From a virus, in the IMG/VR virus record IMGVR_UViG_3300048032_000919, positions 1 to 40,896 of that record: DNA of 40,896 nucleotides. One strand, 5' to 3'. Below, in pieces: positions 7,991-39,735 of the stretch. Below the pieces are notes generated by a model, which was given only the letters and a program-made list of their open reading frames with translations, had not been told where the DNA came from and did no database searches. Numbering within the stretch: the stretch's first letter is position 1; each line of letters starts with the position of its first letter. The position numbers and the translations under genes were made by a program.

Positions 7991-8998
7991 TTAAATAGCT
8001 CCTGCCATTTGTTGTTGTAAGAGTTTGATAGCAAGGTCTTTTTTTTTGCATTCTAGCTCAAAAATTGCAGGATATTTAGGATCAATAGCAATATGTGGTG
8101 GAAAATTACCGAACGCAACATAATCTGCATGAGCGCGAGGTTTTTCGGGAGTACCTTCTGACCAATGAAAGACAGGTGCAATAAAATGATTGTCTCCTTC
8201 TCCATTATTAACCCATGTATATGCACAACGCTCTGCTTGCCAAGCGAAGTCTGAAACTTCTGATGGGTTGCATAGATGGTGAAGGTTGTCTGCGCAAACA
8301 GGAAGGTTATAATTATGCGTTTCAAATAAATATTCGCTAAATTTTATACAATCATCTATATTAAATAAAGATAGTTTATCCTCATTTTCTATTGTTAGTC
8401 TATTGTAAACACCTGCATTACATTTCATTAGATTGTTATAGAATATTTCCGCTATGTCTTCTAGTGTCTCGCCATCTTTGATTGAGCGATTGACATGAAT
8501 GTTCATTGGCGCAGTATGATCTTGAGGCAAGCCAATTTTGTCAAAAATACTCGCATGAAAGTTTAATTCATTTATTGAGTTTTTAACTGCGTTTTCATTC
8601 GCAGACGCTAAGACTACAAATTGATCGGGATGAGAACCAATTGATATATCAAACTTTTTAGCAATTAAACCTACTAACTTTAGCTCTTGTTCTATTCTTG
8701 CTTTGTGCGGTAAATCTTCAAGAGAAATATCCAAAGTTTGGTCGGTAAGGAGAGGAAAAAGAGCAGAACTAAGACGATAATGCCTAATATTTGAGGAATG
8801 ACAATGATTGACAATATATTGAGTAACAATAACATTGTGCAAAATTCTTTCAGATAATTGATTGACTGCTTCATCTCTACCTTCTTGGTTACACAAATCA
8901 TTAAAGCGTTTGCGAGTCATTGTGCGAAAAGAATATTTTGTTTTATCCTTTTCTTTTAGTATTTCACTTATGCAAGTTAGTCCTAGTATTTGTGTCAT
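7991..8998 (-). CDS. uvsE: UV damage endonuclease UvdE
   Basis: A 335-residue UVDE-family TIM-barrel nuclease that nicks DNA 5' to UV photoproducts and other lesions. The metal-site pattern is intact: H123 (GSHPDQF), H148, H168 (NIHVN), E204 (LTIENED), D237 and H240 (ADNLHH), H278 (PVFHW), H290 and E314. It opens GLTCISEIL and has the HYRLSS signature near 73. The start is set by a leaderless promoter. A second, ligand-poor paralogue lies at 38611-39735. Confidence 0.9.
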   Translation of the reverse strand: MTQILGLTCISEILKEKDKTKYSFRTMTRKRFNDLCNQEGRDEAVNQLSERILHNVIVTQYIVNHCHSSNIRHYRLSSALFPLLTDQTLDISLEDLPHKARIEQELKLVGLIAKKFDISIGSHPDQFVVLASANENAVKNSINELNFHASIFDKIGLPQDHTAPMNIHVNRSIKDGETLEDIAEIFYNNLMKCNAGVYNRLTIENEDKLSLFNIDDCIKFSEYLFETHNYNLPVCADNLHHLCNPSEVSDFAWQAERCAYTWVNNGEGDNHFIAPVFHWSEGTPEKPRAHADYVAFGNFPPHIAIDPKYPAIFELECKKKDLAIKLLQQQMAGAI

Positions 8999-12476: not shown

Positions 12477-12646
12477 AGCATTGATGAAAAGAGATTAGCG
12501 ACTGATTGCAATTTTTTAGTAGCTTCATTTGTAAAATCAATTAAATTAAGAACTTTTTGCAAGGTTTCTTTTTTAGCGCCATCATTTTCATGATACCAAA
12601 GGGTGTAAACCTCATGTCGTAGTTTATCTATTTCTAAATTATTCAT
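12473..12646 (-). CDS. Hypothetical helical protein, 57 aa
   Basis: I start it at MNNLEIDKLRHEVYTLWYHE (12646), which forms an ATGA junction with the RuvB-like gene's stop. An earlier ATG at 12658 overlaps more. The protein is helical and acidic. It could be a small partner of the upstream ATPase, but only position suggests that. Confidence 0.6.
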   Translation of the reverse strand: MNNLEIDKLRHEVYTLWYHENDGAKKETLQKVLNLIDFTNEATKKLQSVANLFSSML

Positions 12647-13569
12647 AGTAATTTGCATACTTGGCGACCATTATGAGTGATTTTACGCTTGCCATCTATT
12701 TCAATGAGATTTTTACTTAAAAGGTACAGCTCATGGTCTCTGCGCACAGCAGTTGAGCTTAGACCTAGTTTAGCCGACAAGCCTGTCAAGGTAACAGAGC
12801 CGCAATTATTTAATATTTCAAGCACTTGTTTTTCAGTATTAGTTAATCCGAATGGAAGTATTCCGATGGTATCGCATAACTCTTTAAAATTCTCGACCCC
12901 AAAATTGTTATCATCTTTTGCTCCGCAATACAAAGCAATCTCTTTCGCTCTTTTGACAGCGCTACGCGCATTGCTTCTAATTGTTCCTGAGACTTGGTTT
13001 AAGCACTCTTCGGTAAACACAATTTCAGGAGCGCAAAGTTCAACAATTCTACCGAGTTCCGATTTGCTATAAGGCTCAAAGTCAACATTTGTCAGCCGAT
13101 CTTTTAGTGGGGGAAATATTTTATCAGTCTCAGTTGTTGCGAAGATAAAAGTCTGTTGCCTGAAATTAAACTCAAAGCTCATGCCATTCCATTCAAATGT
13201 CTTGCGACTATTTGCTTCCGTATTAAAAATACTCAAGAAAGCCATTGTTAGGTCTTGAGGCAATTCATGGCATTCGTCAAACAATATTGTGATTTCGTTA
13301 TCGCATATTAATGGAATAAAAATCTGCTCAAAGAATTGCTCGTTATTTTTAATTGTCGAACAATTTAATTCAAGAAAAGCGCGCTTATCGCCATCTTGAT
13401 TATGTAAGTTTCTAGCAAAAGCTTTTGCGAACTCTGTTTTTCCGAGACCCTTAGCACCTGCCATCAATAAGAAGGGCGCTTGAGAAGTTTTATGAAAAGC
13501 GTCAAGATAAAAGCCAAGCTTCTTTTTAACTGCGTTTTGACCAATTAAGTCGGAGAAGTAGTTACTCAT
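12643..13569 (-). CDS. RuvB-like AAA+ Holliday junction helicase
   Basis: A 308-residue AAA+ ATPase of the RuvB type. It has DLIGQNAVKKKLGFYL at the N-terminus (FxxxIGQ-type box), Walker A GAKGLGKT (38-45), Walker B ILFDECHE (95-102), sensor-1 region FIFATTETDK and an arginine-finger segment PPLKDRL. The C-terminal winged helix contains LTGLSAKLGLSSTAVRRDHE. RuvB drives branch migration of Holliday junctions; no RuvA or RuvC was recognised here, but a resolvase-like nuclease lies at 34262. A zinc-ribbon gene precedes it. Confidence 0.8.
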   Translation of the reverse strand: MSNYFSDLIGQNAVKKKLGFYLDAFHKTSQAPFLLMAGAKGLGKTEFAKAFARNLHNQDGDKRAFLELNCSTIKNNEQFFEQIFIPLICDNEITILFDECHELPQDLTMAFLSIFNTEANSRKTFEWNGMSFEFNFRQQTFIFATTETDKIFPPLKDRLTNVDFEPYSKSELGRIVELCAPEIVFTEECLNQVSGTIRSNARSAVKRAKEIALYCGAKDDNNFGVENFKELCDTIGILPFGLTNTEKQVLEILNNCGSVTLTGLSAKLGLSSTAVRRDHELYLLSKNLIEIDGKRKITHNGRQVCKLL

Positions 13570-19564: not shown

Positions 19565-20365
19565 TCAAGTCAAGAAATATTTTAAAATTTTACAAGAAAC
19601 AATAAAAAAAGGGTTAAGAAGGTTTTCTTTGTTGTAGTTCAAGCACTGATTTGTACCTTCAGTGAGGACTATAGCCCCACTTTCTTCGGCTATTATTTGT
19701 GGCGCGCAAGTATCCCATTCCATTGTTGGGCCAAACCTTGGATAAATGTCAGCTTTACCTTCAGCAACTAAACAGAATTTTAATGAACTACCGATATTTA
19801 AGGTCTCAATCTCATAATCCTTTTTTAAATTATTAATAAATTCCTTCGTCTCTTCGTTCAAATGGGATTTACTTGCAACTACTTTAATTGGTTCGCCTTG
19901 CGGGTTATAAGAATATTTGGCATAAATTGGTTTGCCGTTTTTAAAAGCACCCCGATCTTTTATAGCGAAGTATTGGTCTTGCTTCTTGGGGCAAGCTACA
20001 TAGCCGAATACAGGCTCTGACCCTTTACATAGGGCGATATTGATACAGAAGTCATCCCCACCCTTTACGAACTCTTTTGTGCCGTCTATGGGGTCTATAA
20101 GCCAATAATAATCCCATTTAGCGCGGTCTTTATATTTAATCTCTTTATTTTCTTCAGATATAATATTTGAAACATCCGTGTTCGCCGCCAAAAATTCGCA
20201 AATTCTTTTGTTTGAATGAAGGTCAGCTTCTGTTAATGGGCTCTTGTCATCTTTTTGTAAAGTTTCAAAGCCGCGCTCTTGTATTTCGCAAACTTCTTTA
20301 GAAAGTTCGGCGCCAAAAATTAATAGCTTATCAATAAATTCTTTATTTATATTTGGATAATGCAT
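19565..20365 (-). CDS. cysQ: CysQ-like 3'(2'),5'-bisphosphate nucleotidase
   Basis: A 266-residue member of the Li-sensitive inositol-monophosphatase superfamily. SPLTEAD (42-48), SEEN (70-73), the CysQ-type DPIDGTKEF (91-99) and EWDTCAPQIIAEESGA near the C-terminus give the complete Mg-binding site. CysQ hydrolyses PAP, the inhibitory by-product of PAPS-dependent sulfotransfer, to AMP. It is the last gene of the glycan operon, which also encodes sulfotransferases. The start overlaps the reductase gene by 23 bases. Confidence 0.85.
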   Translation of the reverse strand: MHYPNINKEFIDKLLIFGAELSKEVCEIQERGFETLQKDDKSPLTEADLHSNKRICEFLAANTDVSNIISEENKEIKYKDRAKWDYYWLIDPIDGTKEFVKGGDDFCINIALCKGSEPVFGYVACPKKQDQYFAIKDRGAFKNGKPIYAKYSYNPQGEPIKVVASKSHLNEETKEFINNLKKDYEIETLNIGSSLKFCLVAEGKADIYPRFGPTMEWDTCAPQIIAEESGAIVLTEGTNQCLNYNKENLLNPFFIVSCKILKYFLT

Positions 20366-21191
20366 CTTCTAGCGCTTCTTGCGCAGTTCTTATTTTTATA
20401 TATTGTTCTGTCTTGGCCGTATCCAGCACACAATTTGATCGTGGGGCGACTGTCTCTTTGCTAAGAGATTCTAAATCATCAAAAAACTTAAAATCTTTAT
20501 CTGATAAATTATATTTTTTTATTAATTCAACCACGTCTTCTGTAGTAACACTTCCTTTATTTGTGATATTATAAATTCCATGTGGTACTTTTTGCTCAAT
20601 TAACTCCATTACATATTTAGCAAAATCTGCGCGATGAGATAAAGAATTTTCAGCATCCAACAAAGTGTCATAAGATAATAATTTAGTTAAGTAATTTCTT
20701 GGAGATGCATATTCATCGAATGGAATACGTAATCTAAAGATATAACTATTTGGATGATTTTGCAATACAACTTTCTCTGCAAGAGCTTTTGTTCCGCTAT
20801 AAAAACTACCATTTTGGAAATCAAAATTGGGGGCATCTTTTTCAGTAAAATGTTTTTCGTACCCTCCATAAATACAACCCGAAGATATTTGAGTGAATTC
20901 GTATTTCTTTTCACAACATAGTTGAGCAAGCATTAGAGGCAACAAAACATTACCTTCTATGCAATCAGCTTTCGCTAATTCACAAGCGTCAACATTTGGC
21001 TTGCCGATATACCCTGCACAATTTATAATATGCAAGTCATCACCTAAAATATAAAGATTATACTTTAATTCTTTAAGATCTGTATAATCAACATCAGATC
21101 TACTCCAAGCGACATGAGGTAAATCGCGTGACTTTAATTCTTTTATTATAGCTTCTGCTATGTATCCGTTTTTTCCTAATATAATGTACAT
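20343..21191 (-). CDS. RmlD-like NAD(P)-dependent sugar-nucleotide reductase
   Basis: A 282-residue short-chain dehydrogenase. LGKNGYIAEAI (5-15) is a Rossmann dinucleotide loop, ISSGCIYGG holds the active-site Ser/Thr region and FYSGTKALAEK gives YxxxK. It most resembles dTDP-4-dehydrorhamnose reductase or the epimerase/reductase enzymes of viral rhamnose pathways. With RmlB in the same operon it could make a dTDP- or UDP-6-deoxyhexose. It lies 3 bases downstream of the sulfotransferase gene. Confidence 0.75.
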   Translation of the reverse strand: MYIILGKNGYIAEAIIKELKSRDLPHVAWSRSDVDYTDLKELKYNLYILGDDLHIINCAGYIGKPNVDACELAKADCIEGNVLLPLMLAQLCCEKKYEFTQISSGCIYGGYEKHFTEKDAPNFDFQNGSFYSGTKALAEKVVLQNHPNSYIFRLRIPFDEYASPRNYLTKLLSYDTLLDAENSLSHRADFAKYVMELIEQKVPHGIYNITNKGSVTTEDVVELIKKYNLSDKDFKFFDDLESLSKETVAPRSNCVLDTAKTEQYIKIRTAQEALEDALSKYK

Positions 21192-21194
21192 AAA

Positions 21195-21806
21195 TTATGT
21201 TCCAAATTCGTATCCGAAATACTCGATGTCCTGCTCATACTTTTTCTCAACAATCTCGCGGATCTCATCCTCGTAGTATTCAGTATAATGTTTATGTTTT
21301 GACTTGTTTTTGTGTGGAAGTTGTTGCCGAGGTACCCCGATTTTGTCGCAGATAAGATCGAAGTCTTCTTGAAGTTTTTCGAATCTGCCTATGAAATCAA
21401 CCAAGCAATTATCTGATGCGTCATATATGAATTTATATTGTTCTAAGTTATGTTTTTGCCTCAGAGTTGTAGTGTTATTTTCTGATTGATTAATTAAATC
21501 GCCTAATTTAAGTTTTACCCAGTCGTTGAAATTTAAAGATTCATTCAAATATGTTTTTTCCCAAAAATATTCTGATAAACATTTTGAAAAAGGATTTCGT
21601 ACAAATGTAAATTTAAAATAATCATTAAAAACTTGATCGCCTATTTTTTCTTGTAATTCACAAGCTTTTAAATGTTGCAGCACAACACCCTTCTCGATAC
21701 CCCATAATTTTTTTTTATCTCCATATCCACCTAAACATTTTTCGATTGATTCCCCTGCATTTTTAGGAATATGAACAAAAATCATTTTTTTTGTATGATC
21801 AATCAT
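21195..21806 (-). CDS. Carbohydrate sulfotransferase (Sulfotransfer_2-like)
   Basis: A 203-residue apparently intact sulfotransferase. FVHIPKNAGESI (10-21) is the 5'-phosphosulfate-binding loop; FTFVRNPFSKCLSEYF (about 67-82) is the 3'-phosphate-binding motif. It ends with DIEYFGYEFGT, a tail also found in the remnant at 24933-25028. Such enzymes move sulfate from PAPS to a sugar hydroxyl. The start overlaps the cytidylyltransferase gene by 8 bases. Confidence 0.85.
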   Translation of the reverse strand: MIDHTKKMIFVHIPKNAGESIEKCLGGYGDKKKLWGIEKGVVLQHLKACELQEKIGDQVFNDYFKFTFVRNPFSKCLSEYFWEKTYLNESLNFNDWVKLKLGDLINQSENNTTTLRQKHNLEQYKFIYDASDNCLVDFIGRFEKLQEDFDLICDKIGVPRQQLPHKNKSKHKHYTEYYEDEIREIVEKKYEQDIEYFGYEFGT

Positions 21807-22248
21807 TTATAACATCTGGATTTTGTTTTATTGTTTGTTTAGTTATTAAGTCTTTCAGTCGAGTGGTTGACCACTCATGTGATCTTGTAGTATATATTAC
21901 ACGGGGAGGAAGATCATCTCCTGTAAAACTTTTGCCAATATAATCTTCTCCAAGTATGCGAATGTCGGGTTTCCAGAATTTAATTAAATCCACAAGCTCT
22001 TCTTCGGTTTGATACATATATACTTCGTCTATGTATTTTATAGCCATTAATGCTTTGTAGCGTTCGTAGTATGGTATAACGGGTTTATATTTTGTAAACC
22101 TTGTGGCACTTGGATCTAGCTGCAAAAAAATCAAAAAACGATCACAATGCCTTTTCGCCTCCTCAAAGGTATAGATGTACCCTGGATGCAAAAGATCAAA
22201 GTTACCTGCCGTAAAACCTACTATTTCTTTGTTTCTTGAATTTTCCAT
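21799..22248 (-). CDS. Cytidylyltransferase-like nucleotidyltransferase
   Basis: A 149-residue HxGH nucleotidyltransferase: GFTAGNFDLLHPGYIYTF (11-28) matches the GxFDxxHxGH loop with the last His replaced by Tyr, and RSHEWSTTRLKDLI is the C-terminal loop. Family members make CDP-glycerol, CDP-ethanolamine or ADP/CDP-sugars. The His-to-Tyr change at the second His may affect catalysis or specificity. It overlaps the glycosyltransferase gene by 28 bases. Confidence 0.75.
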   Translation of the reverse strand: MENSRNKEIVGFTAGNFDLLHPGYIYTFEEAKRHCDRFLIFLQLDPSATRFTKYKPVIPYYERYKALMAIKYIDEVYMYQTEEELVDLIKFWKPDIRILGEDYIGKSFTGDDLPPRVIYTTRSHEWSTTRLKDLITKQTIKQNPDVIND

Positions 22249-22961
22249 ATTGTATAATTTTCTATGATTTTATTTTGTATTCTGTTCGTTTTTACAAACA
22301 TAACCTCTAAGGGATTTAACGTAGCACCGTAATATCTTTCATTGAAACATATATCTCCATGTTTTTCTGAATTATATTGAGATAACTGCAATGGTTTTAT
22401 TTTAAATCCGACTGCCAAAAGCACCCTGCTCATTCTGATCTCGTGTTGAATGATAACTTCAGACTTGTCTTTGCCTATAGAGTCAAAAATACCTTTATTA
22501 AGAAGAACCTCTAAACCAGAGAAATCTGTAGCAAAACAATAACTTTGAATATGCAAGTTTGGCTGAGAGCAAAGCCCTCGAAAATTCCAAGTTGAGCCAA
22601 CCAGTTTGACTTTATCATTAATACATGAATTCAATAAATCAACCCAATTCAAAGAGTTTGGAATATAATCGGGAAGAAAAGGTCCGCGACATGTATCGTT
22701 TATGAAAATAAAACGATCAAATTGATCCAGTTTGACACTTTCTAAAGATTGCTGGTATCCCCCAAAATCGTAACCCTTATTGTGCCCCTTGATAATAGAT
22801 ATGTTTGATTGACAAGGAATTTGCGTACCTCCTGTAGAGCTATTAATTACAAAATTGAATTGGTGGTCAGAAGAGTTTGTTAACCCTAATTGTAAAAAAA
22901 AATCTAGATTACGCTTAGAAGACTCGGTCTCAAAGTGAACAAATGTAATTAATGTTTTCAA
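22221..22961 (-). CDS. Glycosyltransferase related to rhamnan synthesis protein RgpF
   Basis: A 246-residue protein with a GT-A-like layout: MKTLITFVHFETESSKRNLD at the start, NKGYDFGGY (about 81-89), then FIFINDTCRGPFLP (about 104-117). The GYDxGxY and INDxxxGP phrases are typical of RgpF-like rhamnosyltransferases. A rhamnose acceptor would fit the RmlB and RmlD-like genes nearby. It overlaps rmlB by 4 bases. Confidence 0.7.
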   Translation of the reverse strand: MKTLITFVHFETESSKRNLDFFLQLGLTNSSDHQFNFVINSSTGGTQIPCQSNISIIKGHNKGYDFGGYQQSLESVKLDQFDRFIFINDTCRGPFLPDYIPNSLNWVDLLNSCINDKVKLVGSTWNFRGLCSQPNLHIQSYCFATDFSGLEVLLNKGIFDSIGKDKSEVIIQHEIRMSRVLLAVGFKIKPLQLSQYNSEKHGDICFNERYYGATLNPLEVMFVKTNRIQNKIIENYTIWKIQETKK

Positions 22962-23890
22962 ATTAACTCTTTCAATCCTTCCTTAAAATTTATGCTGGGA
23001 AACCAATTTAATTCCCTTTGAATTTTAGTATTATCAATTGCATAACGCCAATCGTGACCTAATCGGTCTTTGACGAATTCTATTTGACTTTCATCTTTAT
23101 CTAGAAGTTTTAAGATTGTTTTAACAATATCAATGTTACGAACTTCATTTTTGCCACCAATATTATAAACTTCGCCAATTTTTCCACCATGCAATACCGC
23201 ATCGATGCCAGAGCAATGATCTGAGACATGAATCCAGTCACGAATATTTCTGCCATCACCATAAACAGGAAGTTTTTTGTCTGCCTTGGCATTTTTAATC
23301 ATTGATGGAATTAATTTTTCTTCGTGTTGATTTGGGCCATAATTGTTTGAGCAACGAGTGATCAAAATAGGGTAATTGAAAGTTTCATAAAAACTACGAC
23401 ACAATAAATCCGCACTTGCTTTACTTGCGGAATAGGGGCTGTTAGCTTGTATCGGAGTATCTTCAGTAAAAGGATCGTCTTCTTCTGTTAAGCTACCGTA
23501 TACCTCATCTGTAGAGACTTGAAGGTATCTCTCGATGCTTGGACAATCATGTAGCAATGTCAATAATGAATGCGTTCCATTGATGTTGGTTTTAATAAAA
23601 GGATTTGAATTGTTTATGCTATTATCTACATGACTTTCAGCGGCAAAATTAACAATATAATTTATATTATTTTTTTGAACTAATCTTTTTATGCTTTTTG
23701 TACTGTTGATATCATATAATGATAAATAGTATCTGCCTGATCGATTTATATCTTTGCTAATGTTATCATAATTAGCCGCATAAGTTTTTACGTCAACATT
23801 GAAGATTTTATAATCATACTTATCAAATATATACTTGATAAAATTACTTCCAATGAAGCCTAGCCCGCCTGTGACTAATATGCTTTTCAT
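22958..23890 (-). CDS. rmlB: dTDP-glucose 4,6-dehydratase
   Basis: A 310-residue extended SDR. VTGGLGFIGSNF (6-17) is the NAD loop; FAAESHVDNSI and QVSTDEVYGSL carry the substrate and catalytic Thr-Asp-Glu residues; YSASKASADLL contains YxxxK; RCSNNYGPNQHEEKLIP is characteristic of RmlB. It converts dTDP-glucose to the 4-keto-6-deoxy intermediate. It stops at KEGLKELI, somewhat short of typical RmlB, where the 4-base overlap with the next gene falls. Confidence 0.9.
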   Translation of the reverse strand: MKSILVTGGLGFIGSNFIKYIFDKYDYKIFNVDVKTYAANYDNISKDINRSGRYYLSLYDINSTKSIKRLVQKNNINYIVNFAAESHVDNSINNSNPFIKTNINGTHSLLTLLHDCPSIERYLQVSTDEVYGSLTEEDDPFTEDTPIQANSPYSASKASADLLCRSFYETFNYPILITRCSNNYGPNQHEEKLIPSMIKNAKADKKLPVYGDGRNIRDWIHVSDHCSGIDAVLHGGKIGEVYNIGGKNEVRNIDIVKTILKLLDKDESQIEFVKDRLGHDWRYAIDNTKIQRELNWFPSINFKEGLKELI

Positions 23891-23892
23891 CT

Positions 23893-24096
23893 TTAAGAAC
23901 CTTGACGATCATATGGGTTGCGAACAAATGAAAATACATAATAATCTAAGTGATCATTTAAGAAATGAGAGAAGCCACGCTTTCTTAAAACTTTTGCTGG
24001 TATATCTGGATCAGCATCTCGCAAAAACCTTTCGACAGATGTGCCTGCAGCTTTAGGTATATGCAGGAATATGCATTTATGTTTATGGCTGATCAT
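23893..24096 (-). pseudogene. Truncated sulfotransferase (N-terminal third)
   Basis: A 67-codon frame with both PAPS-contact motifs, FLHIPKAAGTSVERFL and FSFVRNPYDR, that ends right after the second motif, 2 bases before rmlB. Its start MISHKHK matches that of the remnant at 24933-25028. It lacks the substrate-binding C-terminal two thirds, so it is most likely a decayed paralogue of the 21195 gene. A functional mini-protein is not excluded. Confidence 0.7.
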
Positions 24097-24116
24097 TATT
24101 CATTTCTCCATTTTCT

Positions 24117-24929
24117 TTAGTAAAAATAATCATCTAGAATTTTGGCGGGATGAAAGATATTACAGTCTTCATTTTGTATAAAATTTAAAGAATAACCAAG
24201 TTTATCTTGACCTATTCCGTTGAACATAGAATGCCTGCAGTCTTCTTCGTTAAGTTCAATAAGAGAATAATCAAAATTCTTGCAAATATATGGCAACCAT
24301 AATTCATGATGACTAGTTTTATCCTCTTCTATTATAGATTGTATAACTTGAGTTGCTAATTTTTTACTAGATCTATGTAAATATAAGTGACAAATCGCAT
24401 TATGAATAACATGACTTAAATGTCCGATTCTCCAGCCAATATTACCTTCTATATCGGAATCATGATTGAAGCACCAAAAAGGAAGCTCAGAAATTGATGG
24501 AAATACAGGGTCTCTAACTCCGCGTTTACTAATTAAATCTACATTTAGATTTTTGTATTTTTCAAAAAATTTATTCCAATCTTTGGCATAAACATCATCC
24601 TCCATATACCACATATATTCAAATGAACTATTCGCAAACCAATCATATGCAGAGAGCTTCGCGCAATTATCAGGCCATCGCCCATTAAAATTTTTTATTT
24701 TTTGACCATATTTATCAAAATAAACTCGATTATCAACCAGTTTTACGTCGACTTGATTTATGATGTTTTTGAGTAAGTCTAAAGAACTCTCATATCTAGT
24801 ATCAATCCCCAAAGTAATTTTATACCCAACTGAATCAATCAAAGACTTTATAATCCTTTTCTTTGTTGGGTTAACATTTGATACAGACATATAAATAGCT
24901 GTATTTTGGGTATTAGAGTGATCGTTCAT
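24117..24929 (-). CDS. Putative glycosyltransferase (GT-A fold)
   Basis: A 270-residue protein with an N-terminal nucleotide-sugar-type fold (TAIYMSVSNVNPTKKRIIKS) and FEYMWYMEDDVYAKDW near residue 105, whose EDDVY fits the DxD metal motif. GNIGWRIGHLSHVIHNAICH follows in the acceptor half. No CAZy family can be given from reading alone. It is in the operon between two sulfotransferase remnants. Confidence 0.6.
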   Translation of the reverse strand: MNDHSNTQNTAIYMSVSNVNPTKKRIIKSLIDSVGYKITLGIDTRYESSLDLLKNIINQVDVKLVDNRVYFDKYGQKIKNFNGRWPDNCAKLSAYDWFANSSFEYMWYMEDDVYAKDWNKFFEKYKNLNVDLISKRGVRDPVFPSISELPFWCFNHDSDIEGNIGWRIGHLSHVIHNAICHLYLHRSSKKLATQVIQSIIEEDKTSHHELWLPYICKNFDYSLIELNEEDCRHSMFNGIGQDKLGYSLNFIQNEDCNIFHPAKILDDYFY

Positions 24930-24932
24930 TTA

Positions 24933-25028
24933 TTATTCTCCAAATTTATATCCGAAATGGTCAATGTCCTTTGCGCCACCGGTTCTTGGTATATGTATAA
25001 AAATAAATTTATGTTTATGACTGATCAT
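24933..25028 (-). pseudogene. Internally deleted sulfotransferase remnant
   Basis: A 31-codon frame joins a sulfotransferase N-terminus (MISHKHKFIFIHIPRTGG) directly to the family's last residues (DIDHFGYKFGE, compare DIEYFGYEFGT at 21195). The central 170 or so residues are gone and the frame is kept. This is the footprint of an in-frame deletion between paralogues, or possibly of selection for a mini-protein. It overlaps the end of the upstream gene. Confidence 0.7.
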
Positions 25029-25788
25029 CGATATTTGGGATGCCGGTGAATCTAAACATGTTATTGGATTTGCAAAACCATCTGACGCATGCTTCTTGAT
25101 GTTTGGTTCTAAAGTTTGAATCAACCCATTTGGGTAAAATTTCATCAAGTTCGGAATGAAAACTTTCAATTAGCCATTTGATGCTATCAACTGACCCAGC
25201 AATAAAATTATCGCAACCCACAATATTGTATATCGAATAAATATATTTTAATTGATTAAACCTGCTTAAAACTATAATTTGTTTTATGAAATCTAAATGA
25301 GTGCGCGGAGTAAAGTTTTCTGTATGAACAGGGTTTCTGCAAAAACTATCTAGACCTTCAGTTAAAATGTCGAACCTAGTATTTATAGCAAATTTATAAT
25401 TATGATCTTCTGGAATTTGACAAATGTTTTGGTGCATTCCGCTCCACATGTATTTCCAGCCAATTGTTGGACACATGGTATTACCTATTTTTCCATCGAT
25501 ATTACCGATCAAATCAACCGAAGATTCATCTAGTATTAACAAGCTTTTTATGCGAGAACGGAGGGATTCGTCAAAATAATCATAAATATCAGATTCCTTG
25601 ATTTTATCAAACTCAAAACCAGATGTATCGCGCCAAGACTTATTAGCTTCAGAAACATTCCATGTTTGTATATACAAATCAAAGTCAATCATAGTTGAAC
25701 ACGCCATTAGGAAGTGGTTTAGGTTGCCGCTATTCAGGCTCGCCCTTGTGTGGCCACGGATTAAAAATGCTACTTTAGGTTTGGTCAT
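25015..25788 (-). CDS. Putative glycosyltransferase-like protein
   Basis: A 257-residue protein with VAFLIRGHTRASLNSGNLNH at the N-terminus, FDLYIQTWNVSEANKSWRD (about 36-54) and KFAINTRFDILTEGL (about 131-145). The pattern RGHxR...DxYIxTW...TRxD is typical of poorly described glycan-synthesis proteins in bacteria and large viruses. A role in glycan transfer is inferred mainly from the operon. It is coupled to the upstream sulfotransferase by ATGA. Confidence 0.55.
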   Translation of the reverse strand: MTKPKVAFLIRGHTRASLNSGNLNHFLMACSTMIDFDLYIQTWNVSEANKSWRDTSGFEFDKIKESDIYDYFDESLRSRIKSLLILDESSVDLIGNIDGKIGNTMCPTIGWKYMWSGMHQNICQIPEDHNYKFAINTRFDILTEGLDSFCRNPVHTENFTPRTHLDFIKQIIVLSRFNQLKYIYSIYNIVGCDNFIAGSVDSIKWLIESFHSELDEILPKWVDSNFRTKHQEACVRWFCKSNNMFRFTGIPNIDDQS

Positions 25789-26411
25789 ATTACCTTTTTG
25801 AAAACTTCTGGGGTTAATTTAATTTTTTGCTGTATTTCAAGATCCTCCTTGAAATATTCATGAAACCAATCCAATGATTCCTGATTCAGATCTTCGAAAT
25901 AATTTCGCCGTTTTTTACTGGCATTAACTTTTTTAAGTTGAACCCCTTTATCTGGAATTTGCAAAAAGTCTAAAAGACTAACAAGTGAAGATTGTAAGTC
26001 ATTTTGATAGTTAATGATAATAATGTTTTGATGATCACCAGTAAACCATCGAGATTGTGGTAAATAATGAACATCCCATGTCATATATGTATGTAGTATA
26101 TCAGTACGATTATCGCGTATCAAAGAAACAAAATCATTGACAGTTAATTCTTGGTATTTTTTTAAAAAAGAAGGCGAACGCGGCCATTTTAAAGAACCAT
26201 TTTTCCAGTATGCAAACATTGAATTAAATCTGTCTGTCGGATCTCGAAAAATAATTATAGGATTTTCTGCATCCCCACATAAAAAAGAATGTTCTTTTTT
26301 TGGTTTTATATCTTTTTCCTGTAAAGAAAAATATCCAGAATAATTGTTAAGTAAACATGCAAAAAAAGCAGTTCCACCAGTTTTTGTTGTATGTATTAAA
26401 TCATATTTCAT
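25785..26411 (-). CDS. Divergent sulfotransferase
   Basis: A 208-residue protein with LIHTTKTGGTAFFACLL (5-21) as 5'-phosphosulfate loop and IIIFRDPTDRFNSMFAYW (about 52-69) as 3'-phosphate motif, the R-D-P-x-x-R form. The C-terminus holds LSSLLDFLQIPDKGVQLKKV followed by NASKKRR, as in sulfotransferase tails. It is a second intact sulfotransferase, only distantly similar to the 21195 gene, suggesting a different acceptor. Confidence 0.75.
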   Translation of the reverse strand: MKYDLIHTTKTGGTAFFACLLNNYSGYFSLQEKDIKPKKEHSFLCGDAENPIIIFRDPTDRFNSMFAYWKNGSLKWPRSPSFLKKYQELTVNDFVSLIRDNRTDILHTYMTWDVHYLPQSRWFTGDHQNIIIINYQNDLQSSLVSLLDFLQIPDKGVQLKKVNASKKRRNYFEDLNQESLDWFHEYFKEDLEIQQKIKLTPEVFKKVI

Positions 26412-26420
26412 TTCCCTGCT

Positions 26421-27413
26421 TTATTTTAATTTAGTTATTACTTGTTTAATTGCCATCCACATATCTAAATACTTATAACTCGCCAGTCTACCAAGGAAAA
26501 CAACATTATTTTCTGATAGAATTGCTTGTTTGTATTTGTCATATGTAGCCCGTCCTTCACCAAAGTTCTTGGGATATATTGGATCATTAGTTTCATCGTG
26601 TTCTTCTGGGTAATCGCGCGTATATATTGTATGATCTAAGTCAGTTTCATTCAAGAAAACTGCATTATCTCCTGTGCGATTAAATTTCTTATCATTGCAT
26701 TCGTTTATAACACTGCCTTTTTCAAAAGAAAAATCATCATTTCTTGCGCCCCGAAAGTGTTCGAATCGTAAAGATCTATAGGGTAATTTACCAAAAGAAA
26801 AATCGAAAAACTCATCAGGCTTACCAGTATAAATCATTTTGTCACATTTAAGCTTTTTGTACTCTTCTTTAGACGCTCCAAGATTTACTTTGATGCCATC
26901 AAGCATACTATTAAACATTTCAGTATAACCATTTACTGGTATCCCTTGGTAATCTTCAGCAAAATAACGCTCGTCATAATTATCCCTTTTATTGGGAACT
27001 CTTCCTGATATAGATTTTGGAAGCTCTTCCCATGGTATTCCCCAATGCCTTTCAGAATACTGTTTAAAGATAAGGTCTTGAATTTCTTTAGGGTTTAAAT
27101 CTCTACCTATTTGTTCGGAGGTTTTTTTGTTGTAAGGAATTGATATTAATCCATACTTTGTATTTGCGCGAACTTTATGTTTATAATTATTGAATTTAGA
27201 GTATCTATTTACAAAATCCCACACCTCTTTATCTGGCGTGTGAAAAATGTGAGCACCGTACATATGGACAGTAACTCCATCTTGCTTTTTGTCAAAACAG
27301 TTACCTGCGATATGATCGCGCATTTCAAAAATTTCTACATCATGCCCTTGTTCTTTAAGCAAGATTGCAGAAGTGACTCCAGCTAAACCGCATCCTATGA
27401 TATTAATTTTCAT
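26421..27413 (-). CDS. glf: UDP-galactopyranose mutase
   Basis: A 330-residue flavoenzyme: IIGCGLAGVTSAILLKEQG (4-22) binds FAD, then GNCFDKKQDGVTVHMYGAHI with the His loop, ERHWGIPWEELPKSISGRVP (about 130-149) and YTGKPDEFFDF. It converts UDP-galactopyranose to UDP-galactofuranose, the donor for Galf residues absent from animals. It is slightly shorter than many bacterial homologues. It indicates that the phage-directed glycan contains Galf. Confidence 0.92.
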   Translation of the reverse strand: MKINIIGCGLAGVTSAILLKEQGHDVEIFEMRDHIAGNCFDKKQDGVTVHMYGAHIFHTPDKEVWDFVNRYSKFNNYKHKVRANTKYGLISIPYNKKTSEQIGRDLNPKEIQDLIFKQYSERHWGIPWEELPKSISGRVPNKRDNYDERYFAEDYQGIPVNGYTEMFNSMLDGIKVNLGASKEEYKKLKCDKMIYTGKPDEFFDFSFGKLPYRSLRFEHFRGARNDDFSFEKGSVINECNDKKFNRTGDNAVFLNETDLDHTIYTRDYPEEHDETNDPIYPKNFGEGRATYDKYKQAILSENNVVFLGRLASYKYLDMWMAIKQVITKLK

Positions 27414-27416
27414 TAT

Positions 27417-28196
27417 TTATTTTTCCTTCCAAATTTGATTGATAAAATAGCCATTATTAATTTCGCGAAGCGCAAGTTCATTAATTGAAGAATACTTGAG
27501 GTTAAAGAAGTCTCTATTTTTCCTTATGAAGGCAGTCTCACTTCGGGAAAAAAATTTTCTAGAACCCGCTCCATGATGATAGACAATGTCACCATAAGAT
27601 GAGAAAAAAACAGGGTGAACATCAATGCTAGACTTTTTAGTCTTATAAATTTTAAAACATTTGATATTTTTTTTACTAATATCTTGGTATAAAAGCCCAC
27701 CAGTATCATTTATAGGATTAACGATTGGAAAATTCATATCAACGCCATGCCAAGTTAGATTTTTTTTCTTCCAAAAACCTACTGTAGAAAAAGTAAAACA
27801 CGGATGAATACAACAGTGTCCATTATCATTTTCAGGACGGCTAACTCCAGCCAAATCATAACATTTAAGTTTGGGTTCTATATACTCATTGACATTGCCT
27901 ATTGGAAAGGCATCGCTGTCAAGAAATATTACCACATCATCATCTTTAGTGTTCTTATCTTCCGCAACAATTTTAAATAAATTATCTAGTTTCGTAGCGT
28001 GATCGTATGAACCACTAATACCTTCGATGTTGTCATGATTTTTCAAAAAATTAAATTTGTGTTTATGAGGTGAGGTATCCATATACTCACTAAAAAAACA
28101 CCAAACTTTATAGTCTGATGTGAATTTTTCAATATGTTTTAATTGAATATCCACCCATTTATCTGATGAGAAATGAACTGTTATGTAATGTATCAT
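27417..28196 (-). CDS. Putative glycosyltransferase with DSD motif
   Basis: A 259-residue GT-A-like protein with MIHYITVHFSSDKWVDIQLK at the start and DDVVIFLDSDAFPIGNVNEY (about 85-104), giving the DxD motif. Later Cys/His-rich HCCIHPCFTFSTVGFW and YHHGAGSRKF may form the acceptor side. No family assignment is safe. It overlaps the GT90 gene by 4 bases and lies 3 bases from glf. Confidence 0.65.
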   Translation of the reverse strand: MIHYITVHFSSDKWVDIQLKHIEKFTSDYKVWCFFSEYMDTSPHKHKFNFLKNHDNIEGISGSYDHATKLDNLFKIVAEDKNTKDDDVVIFLDSDAFPIGNVNEYIEPKLKCYDLAGVSRPENDNGHCCIHPCFTFSTVGFWKKKNLTWHGVDMNFPIVNPINDTGGLLYQDISKKNIKCFKIYKTKKSSIDVHPVFFSSYGDIVYHHGAGSRKFFSRSETAFIRKNRDFFNLKYSSINELALREINNGYFINQIWKEK

Positions 28197-29110
28197 GCAA
28201 TATTATTTAATAGATTTTTCCAGATTTTATTAATGTTTGGTATCGAAAAGGTTGAGCGAGAGAATTTGAGAGCATTCTCTATGATTTGTTTACACTCTTG
28301 TTCATTAGATTGTGCCCATTTTATTTTATGAATAATGTCAGAAAAATCATATGCTACTGGAACATAATGAACCCACGGTTTAAGGCTTTTTTCGAAAAAA
28401 CATTTATGATAATGGCACTGCAAGAATAATAGCCTGCCACTTAATAACAAATATTTTAATCTACCACTGAAACCAAAAGCTTGAGTATCAATTATATACT
28501 TATAGTTTTTAAAAGTATCAAATAGGCTCATTCTGTGATCTTGGTTTTCGCCGCCGACATGATATGCATCAATATGCTCTGGATATTTCTTAGTCAATTC
28601 ACAAAGATTTTTTCTACTATCTATTCTTGCCGCACCTCTCCAACAGATTTTAGGTATTGGGTTATCGCTTAATTCTAAATTCAAAAGATTTTCATACATT
28701 TCGGCATGATTAAAATCTAGCCAAGTAGAGAAATTAAAATCAGGACAGCAAATTAAATCTTTATGATGCTGTTTAACTTTAAATGTATCTGGATAGCACT
28801 CTGACCCTGGATCGATGTAGCATTGAGAAAAAACAGGCTCTGGGCTGGATTCAACCATAGCATGCCCAGGGTTATTGTCTGTTGTGTATAATCTTATATA
28901 ATCAAAATCATTAAATATAACATCTTGATCTGCCCGCTTAATTTGAGAAATAAAAGTACCAGGTCTGTGATCACCACCATAAGTGTGGAACTCAAGTTTA
29001 CCATCTTTTTTTCTAAAAACTAATCTAGTGTTTCTAAATTTTTGACCCCATGAAGTTTCGGGGCATTCTGAATCATTATCAAATATTTCTGGATTACCTA
29101 TCCTTTTCAT
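28193..29110 (-). CDS. GT90/CAP10-like glycosyltransferase
   Basis: A 305-residue protein whose C-terminal half matches the CAP10/GT90 domain: PKICWRGAARIDSRKNLCEL (about 152-171), YKYIIDTQAFGFSGRLKYLL (about 204-223), LLFLQCHYHKCFFEKSLKPW (about 227-246) and HYVPVAYDFSDI. GT90 enzymes transfer xylose or glucose and are best known from fungal capsule synthesis and eukaryotic POGLUTs. First full gene of the glycan operon. It follows a 12-codon leader ORF with an ATGA junction. Confidence 0.8.
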   Translation of the reverse strand: MKRIGNPEIFDNDSECPETSWGQKFRNTRLVFRKKDGKLEFHTYGGDHRPGTFISQIKRADQDVIFNDFDYIRLYTTDNNPGHAMVESSPEPVFSQCYIDPGSECYPDTFKVKQHHKDLICCPDFNFSTWLDFNHAEMYENLLNLELSDNPIPKICWRGAARIDSRKNLCELTKKYPEHIDAYHVGGENQDHRMSLFDTFKNYKYIIDTQAFGFSGRLKYLLLSGRLLFLQCHYHKCFFEKSLKPWVHYVPVAYDFSDIIHKIKWAQSNEQECKQIIENALKFSRSTFSIPNINKIWKNLLNNIA

Positions 29111-36875: not shown

Positions 36876-36905
36876 GCCCCCTAGAAATAGGGGGCTTCTT
36901 TGTTT
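36876..36905 (+). terminator. Probable bidirectional terminator with GAAA loop
   Basis: GCCCCCTA-GAAA-TAGGGGGC followed by TTCTTTGTTT on the plus strand. On the minus strand it sits just past the DUF1501 stop. It serves two convergent genes. Confidence 0.75.
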
Positions 36906-38184
36906 AAGAGAGTATATCTAAGATTGGTTCACCTTTGTGGGCAATTTGAAATGGTCGCCCGGACGGAGAGTAATGAACATCATTAAGAGACAAACCAAGC
37001 GCGTATGCTATTGTTGCGTTCAAATCTTCAGGTTTAACTGGGTTTTGTTCGACCTCCATACCTTTATCATCGCTTTGGCCGTATATCGTTCCGCCTTTAA
37101 TGGCTCCTCCCGCAAAAAATGCCGAGAAAGCTTTTGGCCAATGATCTCTACCATCTCTTGGATTAATCTTTGGGGTTCTGCCGAATTCAGACGTTAAAAC
37201 AACAAGAGTTTCATCAAGCAAGCCGCGCATTTCTAAATCAAATAGTAATGCACCTAACGCTTTATCGATATCGGCGCAATTCTCGGCTACTCGCATAAAG
37301 TTATTGTCATGAGTATCCCATCCTCCACGAGTCACTTCAACATAGCGAACTTTATTCTCGATCAATCTTCTTGCAAGCAAGCATCCCTGACCAAAATTAC
37401 TACTACCATAAAGCTCATTCATCGCTTCTGGTTCAGCAGATATATCAAACGCTTTTAGGTCTTCACTCTGCATTAATTTAACTGCATCTTTATATAAATC
37501 AGTATAAGCACGAATTTGTTTTTGATTATATTGCTCACTAAATACTGCATTTAATTGTTCTGCAGCTTTTATTCTATCATTAAATTGTGCGCTGTCTAAA
37601 TAGTCAGCCATTGAACTGTTAGCTAATCCTGCTTTAGGATTTCTAAGAGGTAAAGCTCCGTAGCGAGATTCTAAGAAGCCCGCTCCGCCTCCTCCACCAC
37701 CGATCTTAACATTCGCAGGGATGGTTCTGTTGATCGAGCCTGAAAGCTTTGCAACCCAACTACCAAAAGTGGGGTGTACGATTGTGCCGCGCTTCTGGTA
37801 GCTTGTATGCATCAAATAACTCGCTTGTTCATGAGCGCCTTGATTACTGGTTACTGAACGAATAATGGCGGCATTATGCATATGTCTTGCGACTGTTGGT
37901 AAATTCTCGGAAAGAAATACATCATCAACGCTTGTTTGTATAGCTTCAACCGGACCTTGAACATCGGGGCTTTGAGGTTTGGGATCAAGAGTGTCTAGAT
38001 GCGACATTGCTCCAGCCATATTTAAATAAATAACATGCCGTGCTTTTGCGGGGCGAGTGCCTGGAGTGAGGGCATATGCATTATCATGGATGTAAGATCC
38101 AACTAGCGGCATCAAGCCTACCCCCAAGTAAGATTTGGCGGCTCTAGCAATAAATTCTCTTCTGTTTAATTCGTTTGTATTCAT
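36904..38184 (-). CDS. Tat-exported DUF1501 protein
   Basis: A 426-residue DUF1501 protein, a family in the alkaline-phosphatase/sulfatase-like clan. It has a twin-arginine leader NRREFIARAAKSYLGVGLMP (6-25), HVIYLNMAGAMSHLDTLDPK (50-69), GGWDTHDNNF (about 287-296), VLTSEFGRTPKINPRDGRDH (about 327-346) and FFAGGAIKGGTIYG. The metal-binding Asp/His residues look complete. The family is abundant in Planctomycetes and Verrucomicrobia, usually secreted, and of unclear substrate. Its ATG lies 10 bases after the tmRNA 3' end, so it was probably acquired with, or reads through from, that gene. Confidence 0.85.
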   Translation of the reverse strand: MNTNELNRREFIARAAKSYLGVGLMPLVGSYIHDNAYALTPGTRPAKARHVIYLNMAGAMSHLDTLDPKPQSPDVQGPVEAIQTSVDDVFLSENLPTVARHMHNAAIIRSVTSNQGAHEQASYLMHTSYQKRGTIVHPTFGSWVAKLSGSINRTIPANVKIGGGGGGAGFLESRYGALPLRNPKAGLANSSMADYLDSAQFNDRIKAAEQLNAVFSEQYNQKQIRAYTDLYKDAVKLMQSEDLKAFDISAEPEAMNELYGSSNFGQGCLLARRLIENKVRYVEVTRGGWDTHDNNFMRVAENCADIDKALGALLFDLEMRGLLDETLVVLTSEFGRTPKINPRDGRDHWPKAFSAFFAGGAIKGGTIYGQSDDKGMEVEQNPVKPEDLNATIAYALGLSLNDVHYSPSGRPFQIAHKGEPILDILS

Positions 38185-38194
38185 AATGAAATTT

Positions 38195-38558
38195 TGGACG
38201 TGAGCGGAGTCGAACCGCTGTGTTTAAACCTTCAAGAATATACATCTACAAGTTTAGTTAATTTTTTTTAAAGTTATGATATTAACATCCAACTTCTTGT
38301 TTCAATTATTTACAGTTTGTGGTACAAGAAAACTTTTTCTGTTTTGCAGATTGATGACCCCGTAATCTTTTTATCTGCGTCAAAAGTTACGAGGTGACAG
38401 ACTTTATGCTGCCATTGCGACTTTGGAAGTCTTGCGAAAACCAAAAGTCTTAACACGTGCTTTATTGCCATGTAAACTTTTGCACCTTTTTAAGGAGCCA
38501 GATGCAACTCCTACTTGCAGTATACTAATCCAATTTAAATCGAATCCAGTACACGCCC
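38195..38558 (-). ncRNA. ssrA: Transfer-messenger RNA (tmRNA)
   Basis: A complete one-piece tmRNA of 364 bases. The 5' end GGGCGTG pairs with CACGTCC at the 3' end; GGATTCGA (38546-38539 region) is the D-loop signature, and AGCGG-TTCGACT-CCGCT is the T arm. The tag frame runs from about 38469 to TAA at 38404-38406: it probably starts GNKARVK and ends KVAMAA, 21 residues and strongly basic. A pseudoknot CCTCGTAA/TTACGGGG follows the stop. CCA is not encoded. tmRNA rescues stalled ribosomes and tags products for proteolysis. Confidence 0.93.
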
Positions 38559-38610
38559 ATAAAATGTTAAAGAACTATAATTTATACCAAAAAATTAATA
38601 TATCTTACAC

Positions 38611-39735
38611 TTAATCTTGTCCACCTATAATTTCATCTTGATCATCTTGGGTAACTATCTTTGTTTGTCTAGCTGCCTCGTATAATGCATTGTAATTATT
38701 GGTGACTTTTTGGTATCTTCCGCGAGTGATCTTGCGAAGAGCTTCTTCAGAGATTCTGCTTGGACCATCATCGCTAAACAACTTCAATATAGCAATATCT
38801 TTATCGCTAACATCAACTTCCCATTTGATTTGGTAACCAAAATCAGGGATATGGGCCGAAAGTTCATTTGCAAGCGCTCTAGGTTGTTCGGGGCTCTTGG
38901 ACTCGGTCCAAGTAAAAACAGGCACAACTCCATGCCATGTCTCGTGGAATGCCCCGACATTTATCTGTTGCTCAACCACAGAATTATCTATTTTTGAGGG
39001 GTTTAAAACATCAAATAAATTATTATAAGCCAATGGAAAACCAAAATCATGCTCCTCATAGCAATAAACATGTAAGTATTTAAATAAATTAAACGCACTC
39101 CAAACTCCATGGTCTGCATTTTTGAGGACAAGCCTTTTTTGCGCCCCAGAATCTAACTCTTTGAAGTTTTCATAAAATCGGTCAGCAAAATCGCAATAAG
39201 AATCGTGATCTTGTTTGTCTGGCTGTGAATTTAAATGTAAATGTATAGGCGCCGAAATATTTTCCTGTGTGCCAATTTCATCAAGAAACCAAGAATAGAA
39301 ATTGATTTCTTTGATTGATTTTTCGACAACCCCCTCATCGTCGTCAATAAGTTTGCAGAATTTATCGGGCTGCAGAGAAAGGGAGACTCCTTTTGTGATA
39401 GAAGTTCTCCCAATCTCTTTGATAGCTTCAAAAATTTCACTTTTCTGAGGCAAATCATGCACCGACAAATCAAAAGAAGGATCAGATAGAATCCCGAAGA
39501 TCGAGGTATTTAACCTGTAATGATCAATGTTACTGTCACGGCAAAAGTCTATAATCTTAACGGTTAAATTAAGATTATGTAGTATTTCATCTTTTAGCTT
39601 TCTTCTAGCTTCTTGATCCCCCTTCTCGGAGGAAAGTTCAGCATAAGCTTTACGAGTAATCCCAACAAAAGAATTTGATTGATCCTCTTGCTGTAGGATT
39701 TTAGAAACGCAGACTAATCCGTACTTAGTATTCAT
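38611..39735 (-). CDS. UvdE paralogue without metal ligands (pseudoenzyme)
   Basis: A 374-residue protein colinear with the UvdE at 7991-8998 (GLVCVSKIL, SNIDHYRLNTSIFGILSD, APIHLHLN, PVFTWTES). Most metal-site residues differ: Q122 for H123, Y147 for H148, K205 for E204, N238 for D237, F241 for H240, T275 for H278, L288 for H290; only H167 and E306 remain. A 55-residue C-terminal extension, rich in charged residues, is new. Nuclease activity is unlikely; a damage-binding, regulatory or structural role is possible. Confidence 0.8.
   Translation of the reverse strand: MNTKYGLVCVSKILQQEDQSNSFVGITRKAYAELSSEKGDQEARRKLKDEILHNLNLTVKIIDFCRDSNIDHYRLNTSIFGILSDPSFDLSVHDLPQKSEIFEAIKEIGRTSITKGVSLSLQPDKFCKLIDDDEGVVEKSIKEINFYSWFLDEIGTQENISAPIHLHLNSQPDKQDHDSYCDFADRFYENFKELDSGAQKRLVLKNADHGVWSAFNLFKYLHVYCYEEHDFGFPLAYNNLFDVLNPSKIDNSVVEQQINVGAFHETWHGVVPVFTWTESKSPEQPRALANELSAHIPDFGYQIKWEVDVSDKDIAILKLFSDDGPSRISEEALRKITRGRYQKVTNNYNALYEAARQTKIVTQDDQDEIIGGQD

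Follow-up and report, generated by a model that had tools for sequence, protein, structure and literature searches.

The phage analysed here and relatives of it carry an intact and real tmRNA gene, the tag of which is long and, in most members of the group, basic. The window, meaning the whole stretch of DNA that was analysed, is an IMG/VR virus record of 40,896 bases, and the tmRNA is the single RNA that Rfam finds in it. The match to RF00023 lies on the minus strand and covers the full model (positions 1-374; 102.2 bits, E = 5.7e-39; gathering score = 47). A first-pass annotation, made from the letters alone, had placed a one-piece tmRNA at 38195-38558; the match recovers the same RNA together with the three positions at the site of the CCA, and adds the strand (Table 1).

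Table 1. Features in and around the window tmRNA gene, followed by tag sequences of phage relatives and hosts
Feature	Position in window	Strand	Evidence or remark
One-piece tmRNA (ssrA), full length	38192..38558	-	Rfam RF00023; covariation across 15 phage relatives
Tag frame, resume codon GGC, GNKARVKTFGFRKTSKVAMAA	38407..38469	-	Net +6; translation; frame kept in relatives; pN/pS <0.5 within groups; UA at -5/-4
Tag stop codon TAA	38404..38406	-	Sequence
Putative boxA-like leader GTTCTTTAACA	38565..38575	-	Conserved before phage tmRNA genes
Candidate -10 element TATAAATTAT	38577..38586	-	Predicted from upstream sequences
Tat-signal DUF1501 protein	36904..38184	-	Pfam PF07394, E 2e-111; 70-74% to marine Opitutales; host marker
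UvdE-like endonuclease gene, just upstream of tmRNA	38611..39735	-	Pfam PF03851, E 9e-20
Phage tag group AKNINSVEPFVSEELALAA			Net -2; plus two similar
Phage tag group GKNLSRVESFAPKSEVFALAA			Net +1
Phage tag group GNKSRIKAYSPKSESLALAA			Net +3
Phage tag group GNKNRVKAFGLKAKKLALAA			Net +6
Phage tag group GAKNRVRALGFKNRLAAKRFGFKSRKLALAA			31 residues, net +10
Phage tag group GKKNRVSRAIGFKNRLAAKRGGLRKTRRLALAA			33 residues, net +12
Phage tag sequence form AGNKARVKTFGFRKTSKVAMAA / host tag sequence form AGENNIVNFEPELEALAA			

The RNA begins with GGGCGTG and ends in CACGTCC-A-AAA, with the discriminator A at 38195. The order of the 5' and 3' ends in the gene is that of a one-piece tmRNA and not the circularly permuted order of the two-piece, Melnitz type. 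At 38192-38194 the window has AAA in place of CCA (CCAAAA), and hence the 3' CCA is not encoded, as had also been noted at first reading. All other rows of the 15-row phage alignment terminate in CCACCA, including the nearest relatives, which shows that the absence is peculiar to the window; it goes back either to a late change or to the assembly. The T-arm sequence of the window is also unlike that of its two nearest relatives, with the pairing preserved.

Pairing is found in 98% of the cells over P1, the T-stem and the two PK2 helices (15 rows). P1 and the T-stem are 100% paired and show compensatory changes, and the PK2 pseudoknot is formed by two crossing helices, of which helix 2 has four pairs changed on both sides while helix 3 is invariant. 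Two-sided changes affect 11 of the 27 pairs. As controls with slid partners give only 1-4, the RNA is under structural selection in the phage genomes. The acceptor stem of the window holds G3-U70, the alanine identity pair of alanine tRNAs, and this pair is invariant in all 15 aligned phage tmRNAs, where the T-arm is present as well. ARAGORN did not detect the tmRNA of the window. The program finds phage tmRNAs with acidic tags as well as those of the hosts, but it misses every basic-tag phage tmRNA tried, although Rfam finds them; the numbers of phage tmRNAs published so far are therefore probably underestimates and best read as lower bounds.

The frame of the tag follows the A86 rule for placing the resume codon (PMC2481249). 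The resume codon is GGC at 38469-38467, after UA-CAU, which puts the conserved U at -5 and the conserved A at -4. It opens a frame of 21 codons (GNKARVKTFGFRKTSKVAMAA) with six Lys/Arg and no Asp/Glu that ends VAMAA-TAA, so that the long basic tag of the first-pass annotation stands and a normal short one is not obtained; the added peptide has 22 residues once the tmRNA-borne alanine is counted. Opitutales tmRNAs parsed by ARAGORN unaided have the same first residue (Gly) and the same context (TTACATGGC / TTAAATGGC), and for the acidic-tag phage tmRNAs the ARAGORN parse agrees on both frame and context. An RNA hairpin lies within the tag frame in phages and Opitutales hosts alike, and the residues in its 3' half are therefore partly set by RNA folding.

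The sequences upstream of the gene suggest how it may be expressed. The leader GTTCTTTAACA-N6 precedes the RNA in phage tmRNA genes, and TTCTTTGAAA is found at the equivalent place in Opitutales tmRNA genes; these boxA-like sequences before both phage and host (L159-L166) 5' ends suggest an antitermination leader. TTGACA/TATACT-like boxes occur at promoter spacing upstream of the tmRNA in several related phages, consistent with a tmRNA that has its own promoter together with the boxA-like leader. The start codon of the DUF1501 gene lies 7 bases past the 3' end of the RNA. A second, different UvdE-like endonuclease gene is located at 7991-8998 and belongs to the same PHROG family as the one upstream of the tmRNA. 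Elsewhere in the window, a run of genes at 19565-29110 (minus strand) includes those for nucleotide-sugar epimerases, a member of glycosyltransferase family 90 and a protein that weakly matches sulfotransferases; it may be a cluster for surface glycans.

The window derives from a large virus of bacteria, the host of which is probably a marine Opitutales bacterium (Verrucomicrobiota), to judge by the similarity of the neighbouring DUF1501 gene. Proteins from 22 marine Opitutales/Opitutia genomes, all of 1.6-3.9 Mb, share 70-74% identity with the DUF1501 proteins of the phages, and identities of this level are found only there; the next matches are mostly to Planctomycetes at no more than 50% identity, and there is no match to DUF1501 in named phages. 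This agrees with, and narrows, the initial suggestion of a host somewhere among Verrucomicrobia, Planctomycetes and Lentisphaerae. No match to the strict tmRNA DNA pattern was found in the genome contigs, so that the host cannot be named in this way. The phage terminase, sought as a sign of infected cells, was found in none of 372 Opitutales genomes in a search run without a positive control. The window also encodes an RFC-like clamp loader (12643-13569, minus strand) with haloviruses (HVTV-1 and kin) as its sole named-phage matches; an archaeal host, which these matches might suggest, is rejected by the tmRNA and DUF1501, the clamp-loader identity being only 24%.

Acidic tags (GENNIVNFEPELEALAA, GKSNVVPFEPELEALAA and variants) were recovered from the Opitutales that share DUF1501; their resume context matches that of the phage tags, and ARAGORN parses them alike. 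Across the order, the tags of 103 genomes range from GEEYAIAA up to 30 residues, many of them with 17-30. They differ widely, for example between GEEQFALAA and GIRNRRNRKVMKLSFGNKAKLAA, and span 8 to 30 residues and charges of about -4 to +8; the known range of tag length is 8-35 residues (PMC8012679). Since Opitutales tags often have 17-30 residues, the long phage tag is partly a lineage trait. Basic tags occur in four or five small Opitutales genomes of 0.8-1 Mb (e.g. GKKNVIRGLKFGKSKSYAMAA). ARAGORN agrees on the basic-tag hosts L253 and L254, but it reads L234 and L250 differently, and the tags of these two, read in the UA-N3-GGC frame, are less certain than the others. More generally, small-genome Opitutales of 0.8-1 Mb (L234, L238, L250, L253, L254, L194, L207 and L209) have tags of 20-30 residues, some of them strongly basic.

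Our search with the adjoining DUF1501 protein recovered at least 34 viral loci, 12 of whose records contain the tmRNA, and a DNA pattern of the PK2 region retrieved 30 viral contigs, the longest of 206 kb; a DNA match to the tmRNA was absent from the phage collection. The same tmRNA is thus present in about 30 viral contigs, with tags of 19-33 residues, and one examined contig has genes for terminase, RIIA, DNA polymerase and RNR. Three basal phage tags are slightly acidic and the remainder are basic, up to +12. In the tags of 31-33 residues a KNRxxAxxF unit seems to be repeated internally, and this apparently lengthened them.

The tmRNA could have been derived from Opitutales and kept as a translation helper, with a tag whose sequence evolves almost neutrally save for its degron and a charge produced by A-rich composition, the hairpin and drift. 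This is a possible reading, although on balance we find it somewhat unlikely. It fits the wide variation in length and charge among Opitutales tags, the tag-frame hairpin shared by hosts and phages, and the report that trans-translation is vital for its rescue and not for the degradation (PMC8012679). In several intermediate tags (+1 to +4), moreover, the basicity does not exceed what is expected from base composition. However, the net +6 of the window tag compares with a mean of 0.86 when the tag body is base-shuffled (P = 0.002), and the tags of 31-33 residues also exceed their shuffled composition (P < 0.001); the charge of the window tag is not explained by base composition. The reading is also opposed by pN/pS values of 0.27-0.47 within tag groups, with differences concentrated at third codon positions, by the GNKxRV start that divergent phage tags have in common, and by Arg codons that are mostly CGT/CGC despite the AT-rich genomes.

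A different explanation, and the nearest lead to the extra function that the first-pass annotation allowed for the tag, is raised by a second gene. The relative of 206 kb (G004) has, directly upstream of its tmRNA, a gene for a ClpC-like protein of 821 residues. This protein combines Clp_N and two AAA modules with a [VILM]GF ClpP-docking loop, and its best match in the PDB is ClpC/MecB (3j3s), end to end (E = 8e-173). Members of this family are present in 19 of 27 phage records, all 19 with [VILM]GF at the ClpP-docking position, and they are 36-43% identical to Opitutales ClpC. Five contigs from two tag groups (G004, G014, G031, G160 and G163; e.g. L261:1656-4121) have the gene as the immediate upstream neighbour of the tmRNA, both on one strand, and two others have it at a distance of no more than about 1.5 kb. 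In the nearest relatives of the window (G001 and G002) about 19 kb separate it from the tmRNA, again upstream; it is not in the window, where a gene at that distance would fall beyond the end of the 40.9 kb record. SmpB was sought in 26 phage records and ClpP in the phage records, and neither was found; hence both would come from the host.

The phage tag may be coupled to the phage ClpC as a private pair, in which the basic tag would divert rescued chains from host ClpX and adaptors to the phage ClpC working on host ClpP. Besides the frequency of ClpC with its ClpP loop and its position next to the tmRNA, such a pair is suggested by the inverted charge of the tag body relative to that of the likely hosts, and it has a precedent in the dedicated long-tag and protease pair of Mesoplasma florum (PMC9097571). 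We nevertheless regard it as rather unlikely. ClpC is also encoded by the acidic-tag phages G015 and G166 and by G024 and G025, fragments without a detected tmRNA, and it is therefore not tied to basic tags. Charge complementarity between the tag and the ClpC N-domain is unsupported (N-domain of -15 with a +6 tag, and of +7 with a +10 tag), and the C-terminal xLAA/xMAA, readable by host ClpX, is retained. The adjacency of ClpC and tmRNA may also be ancestral, and it is lost in the group of the window itself.

The first-pass annotation had allowed that the tag reflects the host lineage, and this is partly borne out for its length; its charge is not explained by host lineage alone. A tree built from the tmRNA cores, with the tag left out, places every phage tmRNA in a single clade (100/100), from which the three phages with acidic tags diverge first, the other 21 being united (100/95). 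For the sister lineage among Opitutales, the AU test rejects none of three candidate groupings. The basic tag might have been inherited from a small-genome Opitutales host with a tag such as GKKNVIRGLKFGKSKSYAMAA. Such host tags do exist, two of them confirmed by ARAGORN, and the AU test does not reject a grouping of these hosts with the whole set of phage tmRNAs (p 0.25). However, a grouping of the basic-tag phages with the basic-tag hosts L253 and L254 that leaves out the acidic-tag phages is rejected (AU p = 0.002), and the 70-74% DUF1501 matches occur only in the larger Opitutales, whose recovered tags are acidic. Inheritance of the basic tag is accordingly quite improbable, and host lineage alone does not account for the charge. 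As the acidic-tag phages are basal and the grouping with basic-tag hosts is rejected, the simplest reading seems to be a change to a basic charge inside the clade of phages.

A cellular contaminant, or a decayed copy at an integration site instead of a phage gene, is hardly credible as an explanation of the tmRNA: tmRNA genes are common integration sites (PMC9004378) and the window copy lacks CCA, but full-length conserved copies in about 30 viral contigs of up to 206 kb form their own clade, and the phage terminase is absent from the Opitutales genomes searched; an integration-site remnant is rejected.

The explanation that we prefer, and hold to be probable as a whole, is that of a functional phage tmRNA that rescues ribosomes and adds a basic tag, with degradation through ClpP. 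The tmRNA would be transcribed from its own promoter and charged with alanine by the host synthetase, as the retained G3-U70 suggests; for the window copy, we assume that a host enzyme adds the CCA before charging. Host SmpB would then deliver it to stalled ribosomes, where it would rescue translation on broken messages during infection. The nascent chain would receive Ala and the 21-residue basic tag with its small-hydrophobic degron end (MAA; LAA in relatives), and the tagged fragments would most likely be unfolded by host ClpX/ClpC or by the phage ClpC-like unfoldase and fed to host ClpP. The body of the tag appears to have shifted from host-like acidic to basic in the phage clade under purifying selection, and this shift probably serves to change the adaptor or unfoldase that deals with tagged chains.

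Phage-encoded tmRNAs are known from mycobacteriophages (e.g. Bxz1) and Bacillus phage G (PMC4131195), from 402 of 18,146 phages in an ARAGORN survey that includes two-piece forms in marine phages such as Methylophilales phage Melnitz (PMC9004378), and from huge phages, some of which also carry SmpB (PMC7162821). Like these, the phages described here have a complete ssrA gene in the phage genome. The Melnitz-type marine phage tmRNAs are, however, two-piece and SAR11-related, whereas those reported here are one-piece with long basic tags; the present phages lack the SmpB that huge phages may carry; and their basic-tag tmRNAs are of a kind missed by ARAGORN, in contrast to those of the survey. 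A close resemblance is to the one-piece tmRNA of Opitutales (tags GENNIVNFEPELEALAA / GKSNVVPFEPELEALAA), with the full architecture, the TTACATGGC resume context with Gly first, a small hydrophobic tag end, the tag-frame hairpin and a similar 5' leader all being alike. The phage tag differs in its net charge of +6 versus about -2 to -4 and in having 21 versus 17 residues, and the window is without an encoded CCA. Mesoplasma florum, with a tag served by its own Lon (PMC9097571), sets a precedent for a private tag channel, but its tag and partner are unrelated and the candidate partner here is a ClpC-like unfoldase on host ClpP. Compared with ClpC/MecB (PDB 3j3s and kin), this unfoldase is similar in Clp_N, the two AAA modules and the ClpP loop, and differs in being phage-encoded. 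Phage tmRNAs and long tags were thus already known, while a clade with basic tags of up to 33 residues, set against acidic host tags and associated with ClpC, appears to be new, no earlier description being found in the literature searched.

For the question of why phages carry tmRNA, a clade of about 30 contigs now traces a tag from host-like acidic to strongly basic forms of up to 33 residues. A single bacterial order, Opitutales, spans an unusually wide range of tag length and charge. The presence of ClpC in most of the records checked makes the routing of the tag, either to the phage unfoldase or as an escape from host proteolysis, directly testable. It is doubtful, and distinctly unlikely on the present evidence, that this phage family runs its own trans-translation channel, with the tag recoded from acidic to basic and the phage ClpC taking tagged chains to host ClpP; if it does, the phage and not the host would decide the fate of the chains from stalled ribosomes.
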